64,000 nucleotides of DNA from Candidatus Bathyarchaeia archaeon (GTDB lineage Archaea > Thermoproteota > Bathyarchaeia > 40CM-2-53-6): the NCBI GenBank assembly GCA_035935655.1, contig DASYWW010000024.1, positions 1 to 64,000 of the forward strand, given 5' to 3'. A program made the position numbers and the translations under genes. Below are positions 4,951 through 63,496 of this stretch, piece by piece (the stretch's first letter is position 1; every line of letters starts with the position of its first letter). The notes below the pieces were generated by a model. The model was not told where the DNA came from. It did no database searches and saw only the letters and a program-made list of their open reading frames with translations.

Positions 4951-5208
4951 GTGCAATTCCAGCATTGTCCGAGCTCCGTATCCAACATTGCTCGTTTCGT
5001 GGTTCCTCCCCCGCAACATTAACTTTGGAACCCCAACCAGCTAAGAATACGTCCCCTAAATCTAGGAGCGACAATTTTGGACGAGTCTAAGTCTTCAGAA
5101 AAAGACAACTGAAAAGCTGCAACATAGAACAATCCATCTCGCGATAGGACGACTTTTAGCAGAATTTTCAAAAACGGTTTTTACAATCAGATTTTTAATG
5201 GACATACT

Positions 5209-27513: not shown

Positions 27514-27630
27514 GGGCCCGTAGCTCAGCTAGGTTTTCTTCAGGTTGAAGAACTGAAAGAGCGGCAGGCTCATAGCCCTGAAGTTCGGGAAACCTGACGG
27601 TCCCCGGTTCGAATCCGGGCGGGCCCACCA
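27514..27630 (+). tRNA. tRNA with CAT anticodon (Ile2 or elongator Met) with introns
   Basis: Acceptor GGGCCCG (27514-27520) pairs with CGGGCCC (27620-27626), followed by A and an encoded CCA. The T-arm is CCCGG-TTCGAAT-CCGGG. The D-loop holds an extra 23 nt (about 27535-27557) containing the hairpin TTCTTC/GAAGAA; removing it leaves GCTCAGCTAGGTAGAGC. A second insertion of about 17 nt follows the anticodon loop CTCATA. The GGGCCCG acceptor is typical of archaeal tRNA-Ile, so Ile2 (modified CAT) is favoured over Met. Its 3' end serves as the integration site. Confidence 0.85.
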
Positions 27631-27631
27631 C
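27611..27631 (+). repeat. attL (3' end of the CAT tRNA)
   Basis: The 21-bp core GAATCCGGGCGGGCCCACCAC covers the T-arm 3' strand, acceptor and CCA. It is repeated exactly at 60171-60191, and in shorter or near-identical form at 62354-62370 and 63290-63309. This is the classical signature of tyrosine-recombinase integration into a tRNA 3' end. Confidence 0.9.
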
Positions 27632-27655
27632 TTCCTGGAGGCGAGTCTGGGGGAT

Positions 27656-29143
27656 TCAAGAATTTGAGAGCTCCTTGAGTTTCGCCAGAATGTACTCAGC
27701 GTACAGCTTTTCTTCGCTAGGCTCAGAGATGGCTACGATCCGGTGTGGTTCTGAAAACGCTGCCTTGACTTTGCTAGTGTCGAATCCGAGGGATTGAGCA
27801 AAGTTTTCCAAGATTTCGAGTCTGGTTTGGGGGGTCTTTGGTCGTAAACTGAATCCTGCTTTTGCGTATTCGTTCCTCATGTATTCGACGCCTTTGCTTT
27901 GCACTTGATGATACGTGTCGGTAACGTGGCCCATCGTATATTGAATTAGCGACATAGGCATTCTAGCGTACTCCATGTTCACTGCATAGACCTTTCTCAG
28001 AGTGTGTGGTCTCAAGGTGTAGTGAAGATGCCCAGGTTTTATGGGCCTCAGAAGACCAGCTCTTGCAATTGCAGAATGAACTAGTTTGTAGAGCTGCTTT
28101 TCGCCGATGGGCTGTGGTTTCATTCTGTTGAGACCTCGGACACGATCGTTCAGCTCGTCCCGGATCAGTGGCGAATCGTCGTCGATTTGTTCGGGTCCCA
28201 TATGCGGGTGCAACAAGCCGCCCTTCTTTCTAGCTTCGATGTATTGCCGGCAGTAGTACTCCGCTTCGTGTGAAAAGAACGCGTCGTATGGGGCGTACTT
28301 TCCTTTGGTTATGTCCTCGTTCACATGTACATGGATTATCGGATTCTTGGCTTCGTAGTCACGCTTGATATGACCGTACTTGAGCCGCACAAGTGTGCCT
28401 TCCCTCATTCCACTCAAGCACAGGACGCTAATGACGAATTTCTCTCGCAGCGTCGCATAGTCCAACATGCGAAGAATGTCTTCCACTGATGGTGAGGCAT
28501 CTTCGTAGATTGGGTTTGGCTTCCTCAGGGGGATGCGTGGTAGCTCGACTGCGTTTACGTTGTAGAACATTCTGATTTGTTTTTGGTAGCCGCTGATTCG
28601 TCCGGGGGCTCTTCCTTGTTCTTGCATTTCCTCGAGGCATGTTGCGAGGAACTTTCTGTGCTTTTCGATTCTCAGAGGGTTCGGCAGTCCCGTGGGCTTC
28701 ACGTCTGCAATTAGTTGGTCGGGCGTAGCGCCGACTCGAGTTGAGTACATGAGAACGGTGTTGACGGTGTGGTAGAGCGTCTGTTGGCTACCCGATCTAA
28801 CTCGAAGGAGGTGTCGCGCCATCTGAATTAAGGACTCGTTCTCAAGCACAAAAGGAAGAAGCTTTGGCCCTGTCGATAGAAACGTGTCGAGGACATATTG
28901 CACCAAGTCTGTCTGCTTCAGATTCAGCACCTTGGTTGTCTCGACAGTAATCGGCGTCTTCAGTCTGTAATTCTTGGGGCTACGTTCAAGTCGAATCGAC
29001 TCACCAACAAACGTTCCGTAGGACGTCAGGAAAGAAAGCTCGTCTAAGCGCAGTTCTCTCGGTCTGAGTAGGAGCTCTGTCGTCACTTGGTTTCCCAGCA
29101 GTATTTGTGTTGGCACGTATTTTCCAAATGTGTCGTTACACAA
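27656..29143 (-). CDS. int: Tyrosine recombinase / integrase
   Basis: A 495-residue integrase. All catalytic residues can be placed: Arg in LSGMREGTLVRLKYGHI (near 243), Lys in DITKGKYAPYDAFF (near 276), His-Arg in LRPHTLRKVYA (near 371), His in TMGHVTDTYHQ and the nucleophile Tyr in GVEYMRNEYAKAG. The gene is whole, unlike SSV-type integrases split by their own att site. The start is TTG, right beside a 14-bp inverted repeat. Its stop TGA lies 25 bp from attL; in the excised circle the next gene would be polB. Confidence 0.95.
   Translation of the reverse strand: MCNDTFGKYVPTQILLGNQVTTELLLRPRELRLDELSFLTSYGTFVGESIRLERSPKNYRLKTPITVETTKVLNLKQTDLVQYVLDTFLSTGPKLLPFVLENESLIQMARHLLRVRSGSQQTLYHTVNTVLMYSTRVGATPDQLIADVKPTGLPNPLRIEKHRKFLATCLEEMQEQGRAPGRISGYQKQIRMFYNVNAVELPRIPLRKPNPIYEDASPSVEDILRMLDYATLREKFVISVLCLSGMREGTLVRLKYGHIKRDYEAKNPIIHVHVNEDITKGKYAPYDAFFSHEAEYYCRQYIEARKKGGLLHPHMGPEQIDDDSPLIRDELNDRVRGLNRMKPQPIGEKQLYKLVHSAIARAGLLRPIKPGHLHYTLRPHTLRKVYAVNMEYARMPMSLIQYTMGHVTDTYHQVQSKGVEYMRNEYAKAGFSLRPKTPQTRLEILENFAQSLGFDTSKVKAAFSEPHRIVAISEPSEEKLYAEYILAKLKELSNS
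29129..29142. promoter_or_regulatory. Inverted repeat, probable operator
   Basis: TGTGTCGTTACACA has perfect 5-bp arms around CGTT. It abuts the integrase start codon (29143, minus strand) and lies 7 bp before the TATA box of the divergent RHH gene. A repressor bound here could control both int and its own gene. The function is inferred from position. Confidence 0.5.
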
Positions 29144-29148
29144 TCACG

Positions 29149-29156
29149 CATATAAG
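29149..29156 (+). promoter_or_regulatory. TATA box of the RHH regulator gene
   Basis: CATATAAG is centred about 27 bases before the ATG at 29180, predicting a leaderless transcript that starts at or next to the start codon. Confidence 0.6.
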
Positions 29157-29179
29157 GATAGTCTTGACCAACCAAATGC

Positions 29180-29335
29180 ATGGGCAGGCTAGATGTACTC
29201 ATCGCCGACGAGCTGGAGCGCGAATTTAGAATCCGAGTTGCCGAAAGGCTAGGCGGCACCCGAGGCGCTATCTCGAAGGCCGTCGCCGAAGCAATCAAAC
29301 TCTGGATGCGAGACGAGCCCAAAAGAAAGAAATGA
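29180..29335 (+). CDS. Ribbon-helix-helix regulator (51 aa)
   Basis: A short frame: MGRLDVLIADELEREFRIRV, then AERLGGTRGAISKAVAEAIK, then LWMRDEPKRKK. The strand-helix-helix order, the G-x-x-GAISKAV turn and the charged helix are typical of the CopG-like proteins common in archaeal plasmids and viruses. It is divergent from int with a shared operator-like inverted repeat, so it is a likely regulator of integration/excision. Confidence 0.85.
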   Translation: MGRLDVLIADELEREFRIRVAERLGGTRGAISKAVAEAIKLWMRDEPKRKK

Positions 29336-29338
29336 CGC

Positions 29339-29653
29339 TTATCCAAGACATTCCAACTCCAAGATTGCTGATCTGACGATGGTCATCCCATAAGGCGTGA
29401 ATCTCGATTTGACGGGAAATGTCTCCCGATCCGCAAATCGTTCCCAATCCAGCCTAACGGCATCCTTTGATGCGAAAGATAACCAACCAACAGTCTCGAG
29501 AATGGGGGGAGTGTTGAACCTTGAAGGGTCATCATCGCAATAGACTTGGTGATCGGCATACCTTATCCGGACCAAGCTCCCTAGCTTCAGACTCCCGTGT
29601 CTGACTGTGACCGGGCATCTCGAAGGCGGCGAACACGGGACTTCCTCGGTCAT
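29339..29653 (-). CDS. Hypothetical 104-aa protein
   Basis: A strand-rich soluble protein (GSLVRIRYADHQVYCDDDPSRF). Its C-terminus (SRFTPYGMTIVRSAILELE) could be a short wing or helix. No family was recognised. Its start overlaps the 3' end of the MCM-like gene by 4 bp, so translation is probably coupled. Confidence 0.65.
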   Translation of the reverse strand: MTEEVPCSPPSRCPVTVRHGSLKLGSLVRIRYADHQVYCDDDPSRFNTPPILETVGWLSFASKDAVRLDWERFADRETFPVKSRFTPYGMTIVRSAILELECLG

Positions 29654-32223
29654 TTCCTGCCCTCGTCTGTTGGTTGTTTTTCATGGCATTCTTGACAGCG
29701 TAGGAACGCGTCGCATCCAGCCCTCACCGGGCCAAGCTTTCCGCATACGGAGCAGTTCTCTGTGGCGACAAACGGAGGCCATAGACCGGGCTCTGGGACG
29801 GTTGCCGATTGCGCGGTTTTCGAGTCTAGGTTCAGAGAGCGGTTTGGATCTCCCTGTAGGATCTCTGGGCTCAGGTTCGGCTGATGCGGCGCTTGTTCAA
29901 CAACTTTCTCCTTCGCTACCGTGTGGTCAGCAGTTTCAGGTGGAGGAGGGTGGGGTGGATGTCTGGTATCGATGCTATGGATTCGGCCGGGCGACGGCTC
30001 GTAGATCAGCCCGTATTTTTTCAGCCGATCAAGTTTTTCCTCTCGATCTGCCAAAGTCCACTTACTCAACTGTGCATCTTCCGAGGCAAGGATCTTCTCA
30101 CGGTCCGCAAAGCCGTCCTCGGACTCGAGCTCCTCGATCTTGCGTAGAGTAAGCTTGTCAAGGTGATTTTCGGCAGGGTTACCACGAGCTAGTTGGGCCT
30201 GGATGGCCAATGGCCCTCCGCTGCTTGCCTGTGACTCGTCCTTCGTCCTCTTGTGGAACGTGTTGCCCTTTGGAGAGAGGCGCACCCCCGGCCTGCGGGG
30301 CTGGGCTTCTATTAGCCCCAAGGCTTTGAGTCGATTGGTCTTGTCAATCGTGTTTCGTTTGCTTCTCTCGAGCAGTTTTGATGCAAGTACTCCTGTTGTG
30401 ATGCCCGGATGGTCACGAATTTCCTCGTACGCTCTCCGAAGCGATAGATCAGCGGCGAACTCTTCCTTGATGGACTGCACTTCTTCATCCGAAAGCTCCG
30501 CGACTTTCTCCAGCCGCCTGACGAGGGCAGGATATTCCCAGCGCTCAAGATTTTCCTCGATGAACGCTAGGGCCTCCTTGACGTGCTGTTCCGTGACGTG
30601 AACTTTCCCGTCGTCTGCAACGTTATGTCTGAGGACGGCGAAAGCAGCGGAAATCCGCTCTATGGTTTCCATGAATCCGTTGTGGACCAGAGGGATTCTG
30701 GGAGTCGAAACCTCCATCAAGCGGGGAAACTCGCCCCGAGTCGCCGCAGTGGTGTTGGGGTCGAGGATCACGTCGTCGGGCTTCAGGTTAAGCGTCCAGT
30801 ACACGTGCTTTTGAAGGACATCAACAGGAATAGCGGGAGGACTGACGGTGGCATTAGCGATGAGGTCTGCCGGTACATCTTCGGTAACAAATGGAATGAT
30901 GAGATCAAACCTTGTCAGTTCGACTTGAGGGTCGGTCATGCTTGCGATGTCAAGCAGGGCCTCAGCTCGATCCGTGTACCCATCTCGCATAGCTTTACGG
31001 GGATTGGCGGCGGCTAGGATACGGTCACGGGCCCAAGCCTCCCCACCCACCTTCTTTGTGACAACCACCTTCCAGCTTCTCAACACCTCCCTCAGCTGAG
31101 GCAGCTCCTCAGGCGGGAAGCCTTGCATCCCGTCTAAGTAGGCAATCGTCCCATCCGCTAGCACCAAGGTTCCCCACCGAATCAGATCGTGTTCAGGATC
31201 GACTGAGTACGAAATTCCTGCTCTGCTAGCAGATTCTCCAACTGCCTTCTCGCCGATCTTGAGTTTGTCGTGGCACCACTCCATGATGGCGCTCTTGCCG
31301 TTCGTGCTGTCCCCAACGTATAGAGTGATTATTCCGCCTCGGATTATGCGTCCATCAACTCTAAGCCACAATGGGCTGTGAAGAGTGAGCGCAGCTGCAA
31401 GTTTGGCATCTCCGCGACCAACAATGTAGGGGGCAATAGTTCTGTCGAGATCCTCGCGAAGATTGGGATTGTTCTGAAAATATCTCCTGAAGTTCGCTTT
31501 GTCGACTTCCGATGGCTTGTAACTCTCAAAACTAAGCTCGATTGGTTGCACTTTGTAGACGAATAGGGTCAGATTTCTTTTCTCGTCATCCGTCACAATG
31601 CCTGTCAGTTCCACCCTTCGTGAGGAGGGCAAGTCTCCACAGTTGATGAATCGTACGAGGACTGGCCGGAAGGCCTCTTCTTTGTAGAGCACTTCCCCCG
31701 GTAACTGTCTAATCGAAACTTCAACGTAATTGATACGTGGAGAGTCTTTCACCGGCTGGAGAGTCTTGGACCGCTTTTGGAAGAGCGCATGGCGGAGTGT
31801 CTGATAGTTCGCCTTCTCAGAGATATCTACCCATTCTGCTTTGCTGGTCTCGTCCTCGCTGTTCTCCGTCCGTACCTCGTACTGTTTAGGTATGTTCTTG
31901 GCGTCACCCTGCCCTGCGATCTGGACCCGGACGCGGACCTCTAGGCCATAATTTTCCGCTTTGAGTGCAAGCGGTAGGGTAAGGAGTGGAGGCGACAGAA
32001 GAAATACGAAGACGGATTTCTTGAACAAATTGGCCAATGAAGCCTTTCGGGCAGCATCTCCCTGGCCAGCCTCGCCAACCTCAGGGTTTGTAGTTGCGAG
32101 AAGTTCTACGTCTTCATGGGTAAGCTGCACGATCAAGTCTTGAGACACCCACTCGGGGAGCTTTGTTTCTCGTCTCTCGGTCAGGGAGTAGAACCGAGAA
32201 CGTCGGCTTGTCACAGGCTGCAC
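29650..32223 (-). CDS. MCM-like replicative helicase, divergent
   Basis: 857 residues. The AAA core is MCM-like: DRTIAPYIVGRGDAKLAAAL, Walker A GDSTNGKSAIMEW near residue 307, and Walker B region TLVLADGTIAYLDGMQGF. An ELTRFDLIIPF segment (arginine-finger region) follows near residue 440. The Walker B acidic pair reads DG instead of DE. A helical winged-type region is near residues 580-650. A C-terminal zinc finger (CSVCGKLG ... CQECHEKQP) replaces the usual end. The N-terminal 270 residues are not recognisably the MCM N-domain. It likely opens the origin of this element. Confidence 0.82.
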   Translation of the reverse strand: MQPVTSRRSRFYSLTERRETKLPEWVSQDLIVQLTHEDVELLATTNPEVGEAGQGDAARKASLANLFKKSVFVFLLSPPLLTLPLALKAENYGLEVRVRVQIAGQGDAKNIPKQYEVRTENSEDETSKAEWVDISEKANYQTLRHALFQKRSKTLQPVKDSPRINYVEVSIRQLPGEVLYKEEAFRPVLVRFINCGDLPSSRRVELTGIVTDDEKRNLTLFVYKVQPIELSFESYKPSEVDKANFRRYFQNNPNLREDLDRTIAPYIVGRGDAKLAAALTLHSPLWLRVDGRIIRGGIITLYVGDSTNGKSAIMEWCHDKLKIGEKAVGESASRAGISYSVDPEHDLIRWGTLVLADGTIAYLDGMQGFPPEELPQLREVLRSWKVVVTKKVGGEAWARDRILAAANPRKAMRDGYTDRAEALLDIASMTDPQVELTRFDLIIPFVTEDVPADLIANATVSPPAIPVDVLQKHVYWTLNLKPDDVILDPNTTAATRGEFPRLMEVSTPRIPLVHNGFMETIERISAAFAVLRHNVADDGKVHVTEQHVKEALAFIEENLERWEYPALVRRLEKVAELSDEEVQSIKEEFAADLSLRRAYEEIRDHPGITTGVLASKLLERSKRNTIDKTNRLKALGLIEAQPRRPGVRLSPKGNTFHKRTKDESQASSGGPLAIQAQLARGNPAENHLDKLTLRKIEELESEDGFADREKILASEDAQLSKWTLADREEKLDRLKKYGLIYEPSPGRIHSIDTRHPPHPPPPETADHTVAKEKVVEQAPHQPNLSPEILQGDPNRSLNLDSKTAQSATVPEPGLWPPFVATENCSVCGKLGPVRAGCDAFLRCQECHEKQPTDEGRK

Positions 32224-32334: not shown

Positions 32335-33243
32335 CTAGCAAACCTCCCCTTCATTGGACTCATTGGCGCGGAGGCGCTTTCGTCGATCGCTAATGTTATC
32401 TTTAGCAAAAACAGGCCATGATCCCCAATTTGGGGGAGGGAGTTCCCTACCGGCAACGCTACGAGGACCTTCTCGAGACCCTGGTAAGCTCCCACGGTCA
32501 AAGCCATTGGGAGTGGCCGGGCTCCCTCTCTCCCTCTTCATCTTGGCTCTCTCCAAACAGGCAGGAAATGAGACGATGCGGCTGGTCCCCTGATGAGGTG
32601 GCGAATCAGATTCCGAACCATCGATTCCTCTAGGGGGTAAACCAGAACCTCGGCAGCTCTTGCAACGCTTGACGGAAGCGGCTTCCCACGACCCGGGAAC
32701 GATCAAGAATTCGCTCTTGCACTGCTTACAGCGTCGCAGCCAATCGTCGAACTGATCGGGTGGTATTCCGAACGATCGACCATAGATCTCCAAGAACCTA
32801 CGCGTGCTAGGGGGCTCTGAGCGCAGGGTCTCGAAAACTGTTAGTGAGTTGCCTCGAGCGCTCGCAAAGTCAAGTTCTCTCAGGTCTTTGTCCCTGACAG
32901 CCATTCTCGGGAGAGAGTCAACACCGGATACTTTGCAGAGCTCCCCAAGAGTCTTGGCAGGCGGCAGTTGTTCGGCAATGGTTGAGCTCACCCCTACTTT
33001 CCCCATCGTTTCTTCCCCAGACCGAGTCACTCGTGGCCAATGGGAACCGTGTTTACGGGTTCGACTCTGACCCTTTTCGAATGCAAAACCACGTTTTTCT
33101 AGCTCTCTACGAATCGCATCTCTGACAAGCTCGGACCGAGTAACATGGCTGTCTGCAAATACTGCCTGATCAAGCAGATCTGCGAGCGGCTTGGGGATCT
33201 TCACGCCGACAAAGACTAGTTCTCTTTCGTGTTCTATGTTCAA
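32335..33243 (-). CDS. RHH + zinc-ribbon protein of the element
   Basis: A 302-residue protein. The N-terminus has a strand (ELVFVGVKIPKPLADLLDQAV) and helices (HVTRSELVRDAIRRELEKRG) of the RHH type. A zinc ribbon lies near residue 170 (CKQCKSEF ... CKSCRGSG). The C-terminal third is low-complexity and basic. It is probably a DNA-binding protein of element regulation or replication, upstream of the MCM-like gene on the same strand and possibly in its operon. Confidence 0.7.
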   Translation of the reverse strand: MNIEHERELVFVGVKIPKPLADLLDQAVFADSHVTRSELVRDAIRRELEKRGFAFEKGQSRTRKHGSHWPRVTRSGEETMGKVGVSSTIAEQLPPAKTLGELCKVSGVDSLPRMAVRDKDLRELDFASARGNSLTVFETLRSEPPSTRRFLEIYGRSFGIPPDQFDDWLRRCKQCKSEFLIVPGSWEAASVKRCKSCRGSGLPPRGIDGSESDSPPHQGTSRIVSFPACLERAKMKRERGSPATPNGFDRGSLPGSREGPRSVAGRELPPPNWGSWPVFAKDNISDRRKRLRANESNEGEVC

Positions 33244-50669: not shown

Positions 50670-50691
50670 CGAACTTGCCGCGTCGGTCATG

Positions 50692-50699
50692 CATATAAA
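50692..50699 (-). promoter_or_regulatory. TATA box of the GIY-YIG gene
   Basis: On the minus strand it reads TTTATATG (plus CATATAAA), about 27 bases before the ATG at 50669, giving a leaderless transcript. Confidence 0.6.
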
Positions 50700-50829
50700 C
50701 GGCCTTCCTCTCAGCCTTTCTATCGTCATTGTTCCTGGATTCTCTTGTGGCACTCATTGCAGATTAGTCTCGTGTCATTCGTGGCCTTCAAGTAGGAACC
50801 CATCCCACAACCCAGAAAGGCTAGGTCCG

Positions 50830-52509
50830 ATGGGTCAAGAAGAGGGAAGCTTCCCCGAACACTTGTTCGACGAAGACTATCGGCTACGTGCCAAGAAGAC
50901 TCTGACGATAGCCACCTACGTCGTTCTGCTATTTCCAGTGGTCTCTGTCGGCTATGACCTGACTGCACCCCTCCTTACCGGTACGCTTCCCACGGTGTTG
51001 ACTGCGGAACCTCCGATTAGACGGCCTGGTACCCAGTCATGCAAACTGATCCTATTAGAGAACCAAACATTCGCGTCCGGTGTTAACCAACCATTCTTTG
51101 GCCACTACGCTCCTCCCACGTCGTGTCAACCCCCTTGGTCGATGATCGTTCTGGATTGGAACGGTACCGTTCCAATAAGTCAGTACGACCATGTCGGGGG
51201 CGTGTGGGTGGGCCCATCAGAGATTTTCAGATTTACAACTCCTGAAACTGGAGGCCAGCGATGGCATGTGGAGAAGGATGTCAGCGAGTACGCGGGCTTG
51301 CTGGCTCAGAATCAGACTGTCAAGATTCTTATCAGCGCCCCATCTGGTAAAATGTTCGCAAGTGCCTCGCTAACCTTCTACTTGACAAACTCTGTTAATC
51401 CGGTCATCAGTCATCCTACGATCATCGTTGGCGTTGTTAACTCGGGACCGATTCCGTGGTTCGGAATTGGGCGTGACGCTTTAGCTTCACAGAACATTTC
51501 GCTTCCAGTTAACATCGAGAAGGCGTATTTCGAGCTTTATGCCACGGCTCACTCATGTGACGAAACATGGTTCTCTAGCAACCTGGTTCCAAACACCAGT
51601 TGCAGCGGCCCTAACTCGAGAGAATCTTTCAGAGAGATTCAGATATTGATTGATGAAACGCTTGTAGGAGTGATTTGGCCCTTCCCGTTGATCTACATGG
51701 GAGGCTTGGGCTCGGACCTTTGGGAGTCTATTCCACCGGTCAACGCTCTCAACATTCCCCCATATCTGATCGACCTCACTCCTTTCATCGGAATCTTGGG
51801 AGATGGAAAAGCTCACGGACTCGCCATTCAAGTAACCAATAACCATGGGTACTGGCTTGTAGACGGCAATCTACTCCTCTCTCTGGATTCCTCGAATCGG
51901 ACGACCGGGAAACTTGTCAATTACAGTATTGCACGGAGCGCAACCTTGGAAGTGGCCCCGCTCTGGCCCTTTGAGACCAGCGCAAATCGCAAGATCAACA
52001 TTTCAGGCTACGTGAATACATCGACCGGACAAATTACGACCGAAGTGCAGCAGAACATGTTCTTCAACGACAACCTAGTACCAAATATCTTGGATTTGTC
52101 GGCTGATCTGATGGCAAATGTCGTGGTGACAACCACAACTACCATTATCGCGCCCAATGGAACCACTTTTCGAACTGCAATTGATTCCTACGGCGTCACC
52201 ATCAGAGAAGGATTGCCTGCAAAGTCTGGACCTGTAGGAATCCTGACTACCTATACAGTAGACCAAGTCTCTGCGCATACGTCCAAGACAAATACAGGAT
52301 CGAATGATTTGTCGCAAACGTATGTTGTCGACATAATTCATGCTGAACACGCCGGGCTGACAAGCGAACATTACGTTGCAAATAGGAATGTTTGCTCCAA
52401 CCACTACATAGGGGTGCTTCTAGGCTCTATCACGTCCGACGTGAATAGTACCGTCTGCCCCAAAATAGCTGCTAGCGTATCACTTCAGATATTACCTATA
52501 GTTGGTTGA
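50830..52509 (+). CDS. PNGase A-like peptide-N-glycosidase (asparagine amidase A)
   Basis: About 560 residues from the ATG at 50830. There is an N-terminal membrane/signal segment (TIATYVVLLFPVVSVGYDL), then the PNGase A core: PPWSMIVLDWNGTVPISQYD, GGVWVGPSEIFRFTTPETGG, WHVEKDVSEYAGLL and a strand-rich domain. A YNG-like linker carries several potential N-glycosylation sites. PNGase A cleaves N-glycans from glycoproteins; the family is best known from plants, fungi and some bacteria. In an archaeal element it might act on surface glycoproteins, which is inference. The longer frame to 50689 has an unlikely N-terminus. Confidence 0.8.
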   Translation: MGQEEGSFPEHLFDEDYRLRAKKTLTIATYVVLLFPVVSVGYDLTAPLLTGTLPTVLTAEPPIRRPGTQSCKLILLENQTFASGVNQPFFGHYAPPTSCQPPWSMIVLDWNGTVPISQYDHVGGVWVGPSEIFRFTTPETGGQRWHVEKDVSEYAGLLAQNQTVKILISAPSGKMFASASLTFYLTNSVNPVISHPTIIVGVVNSGPIPWFGIGRDALASQNISLPVNIEKAYFELYATAHSCDETWFSSNLVPNTSCSGPNSRESFREIQILIDETLVGVIWPFPLIYMGGLGSDLWESIPPVNALNIPPYLIDLTPFIGILGDGKAHGLAIQVTNNHGYWLVDGNLLLSLDSSNRTTGKLVNYSIARSATLEVAPLWPFETSANRKINISGYVNTSTGQITTEVQQNMFFNDNLVPNILDLSADLMANVVVTTTTTIIAPNGTTFRTAIDSYGVTIREGLPAKSGPVGILTTYTVDQVSAHTSKTNTGSNDLSQTYVVDIIHAEHAGLTSEHYVANRNVCSNHYIGVLLGSITSDVNSTVCPKIAASVSLQILPIVG

Positions 52510-57867: not shown

Positions 57868-58431
57868 CTAGGACCCGTGACCTCTCGTTCTCGCCTTGAA
57901 CTGCTTCAATCGATAGGAGTGAGGCGTTAGACCGTAATCAACAATGTTGCCTGACAGAGGGAAAGGCAGTCGGCCCGATTGTTCAAGTTTCTGAAAACGT
58001 TGGATGGTCTTGTTGTCGTAGAAGCGATACAGAATACGTTGAGTCTTCAGAGTACCTTGATCGACATAATGTACTTGCACTCTTAGTTTCTGGATTGGTT
58101 GCTTCGGAGGACCATCGTATTGAGGGCCAGGCCTAATGCTGTGTGGACGTGAATATCGATCTCGAATTCCTATGTTTCGGTAGGAAGCTAAGGCTTTTCG
58201 CTCGCCCGGTACAAGAGCGATAGACGGACGAAAGTTCCTAATGATGTTCCGTTCGTTCTTGGTTGCGTTTCGCCAGCCTAAATACTTGACACTCTCAACG
58301 CGAAGATAACCGTTCGAATCCATTGTGTGCTGAGCGGCGTAGAAGCTGAGTCTCGGGCGATCGCCGCCCCTCGTAATTCGCACATGGTTTCCAACCAGTG
58401 AGAAGTTTTCGCTTGGCCGGGATTTCGACAA
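57868..58431 (-). CDS. Unknown basic protein downstream of polB (187 aa)
   Basis: A basic, Arg/Tyr-rich protein (RYSRPHSIRPGPQYDGPP; RILYRFYDNKTIQRFQKLEQ). It begins 6 bp after the polB stop codon, so it is probably in the same operon. No family was recognised. By position it could be a replication partner of the polymerase such as a priming or DNA-binding protein. That is speculation and no terminal-protein motif is visible. Confidence 0.6.
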   Translation of the reverse strand: MSKSRPSENFSLVGNHVRITRGGDRPRLSFYAAQHTMDSNGYLRVESVKYLGWRNATKNERNIIRNFRPSIALVPGERKALASYRNIGIRDRYSRPHSIRPGPQYDGPPKQPIQKLRVQVHYVDQGTLKTQRILYRFYDNKTIQRFQKLEQSGRLPFPLSGNIVDYGLTPHSYRLKQFKARTRGHGS

Positions 58432-58437
58432 CTCCTC

Positions 58438-60192
58438 TCAACTCCTCCCGTGTGGGTGGGATATTCTCGGCGAGACTTCGATAGGAAGTCTGTACTGGTC
58501 AAACATCAGCTCGATCTGGTATCGGACCCAGAGTCGCGGCCACCGATACCTGTTTGGGCCTAGTTCGAATCGACTCCATGCATTCCAGACAGGACTCCGA
58601 GTGTCCCACCTTTGTGGGAACATTTCGTTCTCCTTCCAAATGGTCGACTCCCAGAGACTCCTGTCTCGTGGGAGTCTGATGCTCTCGCGCACGAATCGCT
58701 TAGGATCCAATAGCGCTCTTCTCGCCTCCTTTGAGTCGGAGACGGTGGCCAGAAGATCATAGAACCTATCGCGCATCCATCGTAGGATAAGGGGATAGTT
58801 ATTGCCAAATGTTGGGAATCCCCTCGCTCGTACCTTCGGCGGATTATCATCGAGGAGCCCTAAGGTTCGTTGTTTGTCATAGACTGCGACCCATCGATAC
58901 TTGCTCTTGATTGTCAGTTCGTAACCGCCAAAACCCGGGACGACAAGACTCGCTGGCGCCAAGAAGCCATCGGTATGCACGAAAAGAACCTTCACAGGAA
59001 TCTTGGCTAGATAGTCGCTGAACTCTTTCGCAAATCCTTCGACAATCTCGCTGTACACGCCTTGTCTTCGCAAGAAATTGTTGTTAGAGCCCTGACTACC
59101 GACCAGTGAAACCGCAAGGAACTTCAGCATGGGTTTCTGGGCAGGATGCTCCCGGATTAGACGGTCGAACAGCTGCATCACGGATGTGAATACTGGCGGG
59201 TCCTCTTCGCTGTAGAGACGTATGGGTCTTGACGACGCCCGGGTCAGGTAAGCGTTCTTCACGTCGAACATTGCAAGGTCTTCGTAGACGCCAGCAACAG
59301 CGTTGCGAATAGGACCCTTGACAGGCACTAACTCACCGAAATGAGGATACTTGAGAGGAAGATACCCATGTTCGAGGTACCACGAGTGAAGGATTGCCTT
59401 GTGGGCTCTGTCCAGAAAGTTGTTCTGTAGTATCAGTGGGCAACAGTTCGTCAATTCAACCATTAGTTTCCAAGCTGTTCTCACATCGATTTTTTCCGCG
59501 AGAAATCGGGTCATGCGATTATCTTCGGCTGCACGGGTCTCGTCGTAGTTAGCTCGTTTAGAATCGTCGACGGGATAGCCCTCGAGCGCGGCCAAATCTC
59601 GGAGACTCTTCGACTCAGTGTCCGGATAGTGGTAGCGGGCCCAGTACCAGAGATCTACGTTCAGCATCTGAGGAAAATAGTGGATTGTGAAGGGTCCCGA
59701 CGTTATGCTGGGAATAAGGCCTAGCTTTCCGAGCACCCTGTTGTCAAACTTAAAACTGTTGAAACCACAGACAACCTTTCTTCCGGCGTCTCGGCCAGAG
59801 AGAACGGTCTCGACAAGCGTTCTTGGGCTAGTGAATACGACATCGTTCAGGACAGCTAGTTTGAATCCGTTCGTATCAGTCTCAATATCGAGACACTGCC
59901 AATCCGAGACTGGAGGCAGGTTCTCTTCGAATCGAATGCCGGATGTATGAGCGGCCAGCGTGCTTACGGGAATCCATGTCTTGCGCGCGTGGTCGGTATA
60001 GGTCCAACGATCAACAATTACCGGATGAAGCCCGGGTAGCGACCGGTATTCTTTGGAACTTTGAAATCTTGTCGAACCTTCAGGTCCAACAAAGCATCCG
60101 TCGGTAAAGTAATACGGGGACCTTAAGGTCGTAGTTCTTGGGCCAAAAAAGTTCGCTTCCAGGGAATGGGGAATCCGGGCGGGCCCACCACG
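58438..60192 (-). CDS. polB: Family B DNA polymerase, 5' end removed by integration
   Basis: The open frame runs from a stop at 60193 through the att core to 58438, about 580 residues without a start before GTG 59736. Exo motifs are present: CLDIETDTNG (Exo I) and CGFNSFKFDN (Exo II). Polymerase motifs are FDVKNAYLT (A), MLKFLAVSLVGSQGSNNN (B) and FVHTDGFL (C, with His for the first Asp). A basic patch KSKYRWVAVYDKQ follows. Size suggests the compact protein-primed group. In the excised circle the frame continues in frame through attP to a TTG at 27657-27659 overlapping the int stop, giving about 593 residues. Confidence 0.87.
   Translation of the reverse strand, partial: RGGPARIPHSLEANFFGPRTTTLRSPYYFTDGCFVGPEGSTRFQSSKEYRSLPGLHPVIVDRWTYTDHARKTWIPVSTLAAHTSGIRFEENLPPVSDWQCLDIETDTNGFKLAVLNDVVFTSPRTLVETVLSGRDAGRKVVCGFNSFKFDNRVLGKLGLIPSITSGPFTIHYFPQMLNVDLWYWARYHYPDTESKSLRDLAALEGYPVDDSKRANYDETRAAEDNRMTRFLAEKIDVRTAWKLMVELTNCCPLILQNNFLDRAHKAILHSWYLEHGYLPLKYPHFGELVPVKGPIRNAVAGVYEDLAMFDVKNAYLTRASSRPIRLYSEEDPPVFTSVMQLFDRLIREHPAQKPMLKFLAVSLVGSQGSNNNFLRRQGVYSEIVEGFAKEFSDYLAKIPVKVLFVHTDGFLAPASLVVPGFGGYELTIKSKYRWVAVYDKQRTLGLLDDNPPKVRARGFPTFGNNYPLILRWMRDRFYDLLATVSDSKEARRALLDPKRFVRESIRLPRDRSLWESTIWKENEMFPQRWDTRSPVWNAWSRFELGPNRYRWPRLWVRYQIELMFDQYRLPIEVSPRISHPHGRS
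60171..60191 (+). repeat. attR (exact 21-bp tRNA 3' end copy)
   Basis: Identical to 27611-27631. The polB reading frame crosses it on the minus strand and meets a stop directly after. It is also the last 21 bp of a 56-bp stretch (60135-60190) that is repeated perfectly at 63254-63309. Confidence 0.9.
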
Positions 60193-60240
60193 TTAACGTT
60201 GAGACATCGGAGATTCGAGAGGATTGGAGGCTGTGTTCAT

Positions 60241-60810
60241 TTACGATACGGGAGTCTGTGCCAGACGGTGTCCTCGAACGAGAAGAAGCAGGACAAGACA
60301 CGTGGCGAGGATTATCAGTCCGCCGAGAGTCAGAATTATCGATCCCGGTATGGGGAGTACGAATCCGAAGACGGTCGCGACCACGCCTATTGGAAATAGG
60401 ATCAAGCCAAAGTTCTTCCAGTCCGCTTCTGTCTTCGGGAGTCCAAACGGAAGAATCCAAGAATTGCTAACAAGAGATGTTGTAGCTCCCACCCAGGCCA
60501 GCCAAAAGCCTGTCTCAAAGGATGATGTAATCGTCACGTTTGATGCTGTAAAGAGAAGAGGGACGGGAGGGCCCGCAGCGAATCGCCATAGGCCTGCCAT
60601 TGACAAAAGACCGCCGTATCTGGACAATAATGAGATGATCCCTCCAGAGGAGACGAGGGCAGCTGACAACCATGCATCCTGGGCTTGGATGAGCGTGAGC
60701 GTTCCGCCTGTGCTGTAGCTGATCCAGGGAACAAATATCGATCCGAGCGTCAGTGCTGAGCTGACGAAGTTTGCTAAGATTTTGATTTGGGTGATAGCCA
60801 TGCTCTTCAT
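60241..60810 (-). CDS. Multi-pass membrane protein
   Basis: 189 residues with four or five hydrophobic segments (around 10-26, 46-66, 97-120, 133-152 and 157-178). No family was recognised. It starts about 100 bp downstream of the peptidase gene on the same strand in the att-bounded cassette. Whether it helps in secretion or immunity to the peptidase is unknown. Confidence 0.65.
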   Translation of the reverse strand: MKSMAITQIKILANFVSSALTLGSIFVPWISYSTGGTLTLIQAQDAWLSAALVSSGGIISLLSRYGGLLSMAGLWRFAAGPPVPLLFTASNVTITSSFETGFWLAWVGATTSLVSNSWILPFGLPKTEADWKNFGLILFPIGVVATVFGFVLPIPGSIILTLGGLIILATCLVLLLLVRGHRLAQTPVS

Positions 60811-60882
60811 TAGGATATCTTCCCCATAATCATAGATACTGATCGTAAAAAATTTGGGAGATACGCGTTCTGCTGAGGAGTT

Positions 60883-62109
60883 CTACGTGCAGCTACTGCC
60901 GAAGTAGGATGTCGTCCAGGAGTCTGATGTGTCCGGTGCAAGATGCCCAACGTTTGTGTAGCCGCAGTTTGCCATGTAATACTCGTTCGCTATTATATTG
61001 TGGCATCCCACTGGGTTCGGGCCAGGATCGACTGTGCACTGGCTAGTGGTGTATCGATTGAATGCAGGCAGTGTATTCTGTCGTTCTCCTATGACTTCGG
61101 CAAAGTTGGCACATGGTGTTGGAGAATAGTAGCAGTTCCGCGTATTGTCGAAAGAAGTGTAGTTTGCTTGGCCATTGCATCCATAGCCGGTAGTGAGGTC
61201 ATTGCCAGTTATGTAATAGATAGTGGAGCCGATGACTTGTTTAACGTCTTCCGAGTATGAGTCGCCGTAGCGAATGTTCGAATCTGTAGTGTTCCCACAG
61301 ACAACAGGATTCGCTGGCAAAAACTCGTACCAGGGCCAATAGTATCCTCCGTTGTTCGGCCCACAACCGCAACATCCGCACTGTTGTCCGGAATCCGTTC
61401 CGCCCTGAACTATGCAACCATACTGACTCGCGGCGCAGGATCCTCCTGCGTTCTCTGCCAGACCCACCCATGGCGCAAAGTCGCAATGGGTGGGCCAGTT
61501 ACAATTGGCTCCGGTTACCGAGTTCAAAGGGACGTGGGCCTGAGGAACAGTCCAGTGGGCAGTGGATTCAAAGACCCCTTGCGTGCCTAGGCTGAACTCC
61601 CAGCCATCCCAGATGCCTGAAAACTGACAGTTGCCTGAGCAGGAACAGTTCCATGAGTAATCGCACACACGCATTCCAATTCCGTTTTGAATTGTTAGCT
61701 TTACGATTCGGGCTAAGCCAGAGTCCTCAACGGCGACAACATTGGTTCCATTTCGGTCCGTACTGCGATGAGAGTAGACAACGTTCACGGTGTTCATAAC
61801 CACCGATGGTGTCGCGGCGAAGGGTGACCAAGAGAACTCCTCGTAGATACTGTTGAATTGATATGTTGCTGCACTTGTTATTGACTGGAACGCGGGCGAA
61901 CTGGTGGCTAAAGAGATGGCCTTGGCAAAATCAACGGACGAAGCAAGCTGATTTTCCTGGAGTTCAATGTACGAAAGGGACGCGTTTGTCCCTTTGACAC
62001 TTCCGCCGGTAGAAGAAACTCCATACACTCGCGAGAGGGGTAGCATTGAAATTGCCGCCATCATTAGCAACACAATCAGATAGAATTGCTTAGCTTTCGA
62101 CGCCTTCAT
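60883..62109 (-). CDS. Secreted glutamic (G1-family) peptidase
   Basis: About 408 residues from the ATG at 62109. A signal peptide (FYLIVLLMMAAISMLPLSRVYG) is followed by a pro-region, then a G1/eqolisin-like domain: HCDFAPWVGLAENAGG, GCIVQGGTDSGQ (catalytic Gln region), PWYEFLPANP and NFAEVIGERQNT (catalytic Glu region). Many Cys residues may form disulfides. Such enzymes digest proteins at acid pH; archaeal members occur in acid environments. The start at 62109 is preferred to the TTG at 62151, which is next to the TATA box. Confidence 0.8.
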   Translation of the reverse strand: MKASKAKQFYLIVLLMMAAISMLPLSRVYGVSSTGGSVKGTNASLSYIELQENQLASSVDFAKAISLATSSPAFQSITSAATYQFNSIYEEFSWSPFAATPSVVMNTVNVVYSHRSTDRNGTNVVAVEDSGLARIVKLTIQNGIGMRVCDYSWNCSCSGNCQFSGIWDGWEFSLGTQGVFESTAHWTVPQAHVPLNSVTGANCNWPTHCDFAPWVGLAENAGGSCAASQYGCIVQGGTDSGQQCGCCGCGPNNGGYYWPWYEFLPANPVVCGNTTDSNIRYGDSYSEDVKQVIGSTIYYITGNDLTTGYGCNGQANYTSFDNTRNCYYSPTPCANFAEVIGERQNTLPAFNRYTTSQCTVDPGPNPVGCHNIIANEYYMANCGYTNVGHLAPDTSDSWTTSYFGSSCT

Positions 62110-62154
62110 TGCTAGAGAAATCAAATTTTGCAAACTCAGATGTTCCCACAAATT

Positions 62155-62165
62155 GTTTTAAAAGG
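62155..62165 (-). promoter_or_regulatory. TATA box of the G1 peptidase
   Basis: CCTTTTAAAAC on the minus strand lies about 46-56 bases before ATG 62109, so the leader would be about 20-25 bases. The rest of 62110-62463 holds an att copy but no gene. An ACCACAAA/TTTACTTGTGG pair near 62179-62215 forms an imperfect inverted repeat. Confidence 0.45.
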
Positions 62166-62353
62166 CGCGTTTACATTTGACCACAAATCACATAGAATGT
62201 ACATTTACTTGTGGAAAAAAGGAAGGAATCAACGTGGCAAATTATAGCAATTCGTTATGGGGATAGTGCGTGTGACTGAGTGTGTAACTCTCCCGTACCG
62301 TCGGGCTAGTAGACGAACTCGGGGCCAAAAAAAGTGCCAACTGTGGTGGCGGT

Positions 62354-62370
62354 TCCGGGCGGGCCCACCA
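62354..62370 (+). repeat. Degenerate att copy
   Basis: TCCGGGCGGGCCCACCA is identical to the att core for 17 bp. The upstream polB-type sequence (GGCCAAAAAAA) is recognisable but altered, so the polB 5' end here is the most decayed of the three. Confidence 0.7.
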
Positions 62371-62463
62371 GTTTAGCCTATTGGATTCTCCGGGGCATAG
62401 GACCCTACACTCGGCATGTCGAACATCGAAAGCCACACTTACTGCAGATCAGGATTTTCTCGA

Positions 62464-63309
62464 TCAGCCGGGGTCGCGTGAGCCGATGGGCAACTCGTAG
62501 CCAGCGAAGGGAGGAGGTTGCATGCTCGTCGATGTTAGATACCCGTCAGTGTGAATGTAGAAAGGACTTAAAGGTAGCTTGGAGAGGTACCCCGCGAATT
62601 CCTCAGCGAATCCCTCGACCACATCCGTGTAGATGGTCTGGCGCCTGAGGAAGTTGTTGTCCGAATGCTGACTACCCACAAGTGAGACTGCGAGGAATTT
62701 TAGCATCGGTTTCTGTTTCGGAAATTGCCGAATCAACTCAAGGAACTTCTGCATGACCGACGTGAATGCGGGAGGATCCTCTTCGTCGTAAAGTCGCAGC
62801 TGCTTCGACGACGCACATGTCAGGTAGGCGGATTTGACGTCGACCATTGAGGCGTTTTCGTAACACCCAGGAACTGCTTCTCTGATTGGCCCTTTGACAA
62901 TAAGGGAGTCTCCGGGGTTAGGATACTCAATGGGCAGATACCCATGTTCAATATACCAGGAATGCAGGATCGCTTTGTGCGTTCGGTCCAGGAAGGCGTT
63001 CTGAAGAGTGAGTGGACAGCAGTTTGTCAATGTGATCATCAGCTTCCATGCATCTCTTACATTGATCTCGTTCGCAAGGAAGCCCGCCATCTTGTTGTCT
63101 TCCGAGGCTCGGATCTCGTCGTATTTCTCTAGCTTTGACCACTCAACCGGGTATCCTTCCAGCTGGGCTAGATCTCTGAGGCTCTTTGACTCTGCCTTCA
63201 GGCCCCTTCGAAGTATCCGTCAGCAAAGTAGAACGGCGAACTCGTGGCGACATTTCTTGGGCCAAAAAAGTTCGCTTCCAGGGAATGGGGAATCCGGGCG
63301 GGCCCACCA
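62464..63309 (-). pseudogene. Second family B polymerase, internally deleted and truncated
   Basis: The N-terminal piece (NFFGPRNVATSSPFYFADGYFEGA, 63200-63280) matches the N-terminus of polB. It is cut by a stop at 63198, and the next piece in another frame starts LKAESKSLRDLAQLEGYPVE, so the whole exonuclease domain is missing. Motifs A (MVDVKSAYLT), B (MLKFLAVSLVGSQHSDNN) and C (YIHTDGYL) remain. The C-terminus is lost at the next att junction (ends GSRDPG). A remnant of a related element. Confidence 0.82.
63290..63309 (+). repeat. Outermost att copy
   Basis: GAATCCGGGCGGGCCCACCA, followed by sequence not related to the element. The 56 bp 63254-63309 are identical to 60135-60190. This should be the original chromosomal right junction of the oldest integration. 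Confidence 0.8.
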
Positions 63310-63496
63310 TCTACCATGAACCGATTCGACTTTCTTGGTATCGGGTAAATTCCCACGGAAGAGAGTATCCATAAGGGAAGGTCCAAGGGACGATCTGAGC
63401 TTGGCCAGAGGCGTGTTCTGATTTCCGAACGGTTTGTTCTAAGGGCTGGAGCTAAATCGAAGACCTGTACTAGCCTAGAATAGGACAGCCGGCCAT

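Follow-up and report, generated by a model that had tools for sequence, protein, structure and literature searches.

A family-B DNA polymerase frame open across the attachment site of an integrative element in a Bathyarchaeia archaeon

The window analysed here is a stretch of 64,000 nucleotides (positions 1 to 64,000 of contig DASYWW010000024.1) from the Candidatus Bathyarchaeia archaeon assembly GCA_035935655.1, an archaeal assembly of 2.5 Mb in 65 contigs, and is part of one contig. It holds a 32.6-kb element lying between two copies of an attachment (att) core, the left at 27611-27631 and the right at 60171-60191. At its right end the element carries a family-B DNA polymerase gene (polB) whose reading frame runs into the att core with no canonical start codon; in the excised circle the same frame would continue to the end of the integrase gene. 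The features on which the argument turns are the following.

27514 to 27630, plus strand: intron-containing tRNA gene, target of the element (attB), whose 3′ end is the core
27611 to 27631, minus strand: attL core, exact 21-bp repeat
27632 to 27659, minus strand: left att arm with TTG 27659-27657, at which polB may start in the circle
27656 to 29143, minus strand: tyrosine integrase (Pfam Phage_integrase, 1e-08; PHROG integrase, 6e-13)
58438 to 60171, minus strand: polB frame of a divergent, compact DNA polymerase of family B; 577 codons counted from the edge of the core, without a canonical start
60135 to 60170, minus strand: right att arm of 36 nt whose DNA sequence is conserved
60171 to 60191, minus strand: attR core, exact 21-bp repeat
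62351 to 62371, minus strand: remnant B, an att core that is older (3 mismatches), next to a polB start region reduced in length
62464 to 63310, minus strand: remnant C, an att core (63290-63310) with a decayed polB (63290-62464) of 67% amino acid identity

The 21-bp core, GTGGTGGGCCCGCCCGGATTC, is exact at 27611-27631 and 60171-60191, both on the minus strand. When up to 3 mismatches are allowed it has 4 matches in the window against 0.00 expected in shuffled sequence, and it is found in many related genomes. The tRNA gene is recognised by Rfam RF00005 (44.8 bits at 27514-27627) and by ARAGORN with introns (27514-27630), and the orthologous tRNA genes of eight congeneric genomes are 95-97% identical. 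ARAGORN names the gene in the window (27514-27630) Pro(CGG) and its ortholog in a relative (L038, 1151-1266) Phe(GAA); since the two are orthologous, the intron has probably been placed wrongly in one call or both. The tRNA 3′ end is directly repeated at both ends of the element and the tRNA gene is left whole, while the integrase, an intact frame of 495 codons, adjoins the att site. An intact tyrosine recombinase beside att and a direct repeat of the tRNA 3′ end are the two marks of a classical archaeal type II element, and both are found here. The element, which is probably plasmid-like, is integrative and was inserted in the tRNA 3′ end by a classical tyrosine integrase.

In the suicidal archaeal integrases of SSV1, pTN3 and pT26-2, attP lies in the integrase gene, which is split on integration (PMC8371274). 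The present element is likewise archaeal and integrative, and here too integration would divide a coding frame that holds attP. However, the integrase here is intact, the classical type of the same account, and its stop lies 24 nt from the core, which places attP outside the integrase gene; an SSV-type suicidal element is therefore excluded. The frame that would cross attP is that of the polymerase, as the original prediction had proposed in saying that the polymerase rather than the integrase would be split.

By inspection of the translation, the polymerase carries its motifs in order: Exo I (LDIET), Exo II (FNSFKFD), and A, B and C (FDVKNAY, KFLAVSLVG and HTDG). It has a local match to a cellular archaeal PolB (5e-07, pairwise). 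Curated family profiles fail to recognise it, with no match in Pfam even at E 10 and a best PHROGs match of 0.07, to a polymerase exonuclease subunit. Sequence searches of the PDB gave nothing meaningful, and the AlphaFold models, with a mean pLDDT of 33 from the single sequence and 35 from a two-sequence alignment, were not used. Between the polB of the element (copy A) and that of remnant C, the substitutions number 69/38/142 by codon position, and the catalytic positions are kept in C. Because these substitutions are mostly at third positions and amino acid identity is 67%, the body of polB is under strong purifying selection between the two copies and belongs to a real gene for a divergent compact PolB. 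The main genes of copy A show no other damage.

From 60171 to 58438 the polB frame is stop-free, and outward it stays open across the core until a TAA at 60196-60194, just beyond. No ATG, GTG or TTG stands in frame over 60191-59737; the first is GTG 59736, after Exo I and Exo II. The original prediction had described just such a frame, open through attR, and each of its coordinates checked correct. Joining the two ends computationally as in a circle gives a stop-free polB frame of 594 codons from TTG 27659, and TTG 27659-27657 overlaps the integrase TGA as TTGA, as had been predicted. In the circle polB stands behind an operon of an MCM-type helicase gene (MCM), two small genes (o104 and o87) and the integrase gene (int), collinear with int and downstream of it across att.

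The TTGA overlap is in character for the element, as 3 of the 6 neighbouring same-strand pairs examined share a 4-nt stop/start overlap of this kind (ATGA in MCM/o104, GTGA in o87/int and ATGA in hsdR/hsdM), and it is the best single support for a start in the circle. A start overlapping a stop by exactly 4 nt arose in 3.2% of controls, in which the left arm was replaced by windows from the same sequence or by windows from behind real open reading frame (ORF) ends. An AAGGAG lies about 11 nt upstream of TTG 27659. The left arm recurs with 3 differences in 30 nt in a scar of another genome (G015:C52, L081), which retains the 3′ end of the integrase gene, TTGA included, and in which the frame is open across the core; more distant integrase relatives (G007, G001) have a stop in that frame. 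As a candidate attP, the junction in this scar was ruled out, being an integrase-end scar of about 60 nt next to a different arm type.

These findings suggest the following mechanism. attP would lie between the integrase stop and polB and span the polB frame at its 5′ end. Once the element is integrated, foreign DNA would replace the upstream side of polB, which would thereby be separated from the operon and, most probably, from its start codon. On excision MCM-o104-o87-int would be joined to polB and the small gene behind it (o187), and translation of polB would begin at TTG 27659, coupled to the integrase stop through TTGA. The left arm and core would add about 17 residues, giving PolB the N-terminus MNPPDSPPGSGG; an N-terminal peptide with PPDSPPGSGGPAR would fit the start in the circle and not a start inside the attR core or arm. 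A circle-dependent switch, in which the excised element makes PolB, presumably to replicate the circle, and the integrated copy is cut off, is probable. The mechanism in full, with attP across the polB 5′ end and a coupled int-polB operon read from TTG 27659 after excision, is the best explanation and has an even chance of being right. That integration acts as a switch of the replicative polymerase, with attP within the polB coding sequence, no PolB made from the integrated copy and the coupled operon rebuilt by excision, is put more tentatively, at somewhat short of even.

Several observations weigh against a start supplied by the integrase side. In the controls described above, a start came before any stop in 53% of random upstream windows and in 43% of those behind real ORF ends; the open junction alone is for this reason weak evidence, close to the toss of a coin, which leaves the TTGA overlap as the one feature of some weight. 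Motifs resembling a Shine-Dalgarno sequence are only modestly enriched in the genome (22/87 against 13.75 shuffled). The 36-nt right arm is identical in copy C and has close copies in scars without polB in two other genomes (G003:C67 and G019:C5); because it is conserved there, the block is primarily att-arm DNA. One of the arm copies that lack polB has a T5 run and a broken frame. In the 49 nt past the arm, uniform substitution fits A against C better than the polB frame (lnL -19.8 vs -20.9), amino acid identity is not above chance (P 0.18), and there is no codon-position signature; the codon score for the polB frame is consistently positive only from about 60054 or later. In remnant B, with a T7 run, the polB frame crosses the core differently and is in phase with a GTG in the core. 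The circle junction is absent from the assembly, and no intact relative was found. Scans of viral and genome contigs, phage records and the whole genomes of the order, class and phylum, made with the protein and with an alignment of A and C, recovered the window's own copies and weak matches only, one of which (L007) is a cellular PolB, and no polB relative outside the genome itself. The genes of remnant B (62151-60241) lie on the same strand and are aimed at polB, which makes read-through transcription of the integrated polB possible.

The earlier proposals accordingly hold in part. attP does lie at the 5′ edge of polB, and TTG 27659 is a candidate, unproven start of translation, with about even odds that the integrase side supplies the start codon. 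The int-polB operon predicted on excision agrees with the NTGA style of the operon, seen at two of its junctions, while the arm conserved without polB, the 49 nt lacking a codon signature and the codon usage before about 60054 speak against translation from TTG 27659.

The frame of remnant B bears on a different reading, in which polB starts inside the attR core or arm, either at the non-canonical codon CTG 60162 or, through slippage on a T6 run, at the GTG of the core; the protein would then be the same in both states, and integration would affect transcription at most. No canonical start exists within 59737-60191. In remnant B, whose T run is 7, the GTG of the core shares its frame with FFGPEFVY..DG. 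The CTG is kept in A and C, which is uninformative where the arm is conserved anyway, and CTG start codons are rare. Slippage would have to act on T6, a short run. At C40:153336 in the same genome an arm-like copy has an ATG at the aligned place, but it soon meets a stop; this ATG (L055) was rejected as the true polB start because no polB follows. Overall, a start inside attR is judged rather unlikely. The C40 site itself (L092, about 10341; also L055) is a core-like sequence with a polB-type arm, situated about 100 nt past a tRNA-Gln-like gene that contains an intron.

The copies to the right of the element bear on whether the 5′ end of polB is simply damaged in copy A. Over 60171-63310 three att cores with polB start regions (A, B and C) stand in series, B and C without an integrase, and in copy C an older polB adjoins an att core of its own just as the polB of copy A does, with the frame unchanged. 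Integration with polB at this place was thus repeated, and A, B and C are successive integrations at one tRNA gene. If copy A were damaged, an ancestral ATG after the arm would have been lost through a 1-nt indel, the gene would be broken and the open frame of the circle would be accidental. Copy C has an ATG directly after the arm and one extra G that would put it in frame with the downstream GPEG; the 49-nt stretch without coding signature and the random junctions, open half the time, are also compatible with damage. The frame of that ATG, however, has the worst substitution fit (lnL -25.0) and contains a stop in A, and C is itself a decayed remnant in which the extra G is as likely to be a lesion of its own. 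The stretch between the core and FFGP, the first residues conserved in A, B and C, is only about 26 nt long. In all three copies FFGP shares one frame with a Y..DG-like segment, even though the distance between the two is 18 nt less in B. This shared frame speaks for coding up to the arm. With the main genes of A otherwise free of damage, a broken polB is unlikely, and is the least favoured of the alternatives.

Transcription gives a further line of argument. There is no TATA-like stretch between the core and polB or in the GC-rich core, as judged by eye, no archaeal promoter model having been applied. Given this and the roughly 26 nt between core and FFGP, any polB promoter has to be located beyond the core, as does the greater part of any leader, and whatever the start codon, integration must separate polB from its upstream region. 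The switch could then be one of transcription only, with polB lacking a promoter of its own and, in the circle, transcribed across attP as part of the int operon, the start codon being irrelevant. Operon order and strand in the circle and the lack of room or of a TATA-like sequence for a promoter agree with this, and Tn916 offers a precedent: the genes at one of its ends are promoterless when integrated, and their transcription, which crosses the att junction, has to await excision, which joins them to a promoter of the element (Celli and Trieu-Cuot 1998, in PMC11658703). Against it, the genes of remnant B could supply read-through, and the promoter motifs rest on visual assessment. A switch confined to transcription, unlikely as it is, ranks first among the alternatives.

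As in Tn916, the switched gene in the circle is collinear with int and downstream of it across att. Tn916 differs in being a bacterial conjugative transposon that switches DNA processing and conjugation genes, with no split frame reported as far as the account in PMC11658703 goes, whereas here a polymerase frame would cross attP. In mycobacteriophage BPs and its relatives attP lies inside the repressor gene, which makes immunity dependent on integration (PMC4557955); there attP is in a gene other than the integrase and integration changes a protein, as it would here if the polB start lay across attP, but in the present element integration would take away the 5′ end and leave a silent gene. By analogy with such systems, the polB switch is probably a variant of circularisation-dependent expression, a dependence already known. 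No description of a polymerase gene split by attP was found in the literature searched (open-licence papers, few term sets). If the preferred mechanism is right, archaeal integrative elements would have a simple, self-limiting replication switch free of a repressor, which would explain how the firing of replication is avoided while the element sits in the chromosome. Cases of attP within a gene would then extend from the integrase (SSV type) and the repressor (mycobacteriophages) to a polymerase.

The remaining genes of the operon and of the polB end are these.

29083 to 29346, minus strand: o87, small operon gene overlapping int
29339 to 29653, minus strand: o104, small operon gene overlapping MCM
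29650 to 32223, minus strand: MCM-type helicase (Pfam MCM, 3.9e-17)
32335 to 33243, minus strand: 302-aa protein with a ribbon-helix-helix domain (Pfam RHH_1, 3.4e-05), upstream of MCM on the same strand
57868 to 58431, minus strand: o187, 187-aa ORF behind polB with a 6-nt gap, no family match

The integrase probably starts at GTG 29086, which overlaps the o87 stop as GTGA. Integrase matches at E <= 0.001 occur in 18 of the 38 genomes of the order (own genome included), mostly weak or partial, and the integrase has no relative among the viral contigs searched. A homologue of o104 stands beside a related integrase in L037. This long related contig (L037/L048) was ruled out as a polB element; the integrase end is followed by other genes, without polB. 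Among the cargo of the element are a type I restriction system, a UvrD-like helicase, an AAA ATPase and a PNGase A-like protein. The last, with a PNGase A domain at 50689-52506 (3.7e-53), is unusual cargo in an archaeal mobile element.

The two genes of remnant B that point towards polB encode hydrophobic proteins of 422 aa (60883-62151) and 189 aa (60241-60810) with no significant family match. Serial att cores are also found in other genomes, at 279, 2764 and 6475 in L091 (G019:C5) and at 5081, 7833 and 13345 in L129 (G006:C191). They lie at the same tRNA 3′ end with differing right arms; in many of these a T run is found 20-60 nt away from the core, and the distribution of the cores indicates that this tRNA 3′ end is a busy integration hotspot.
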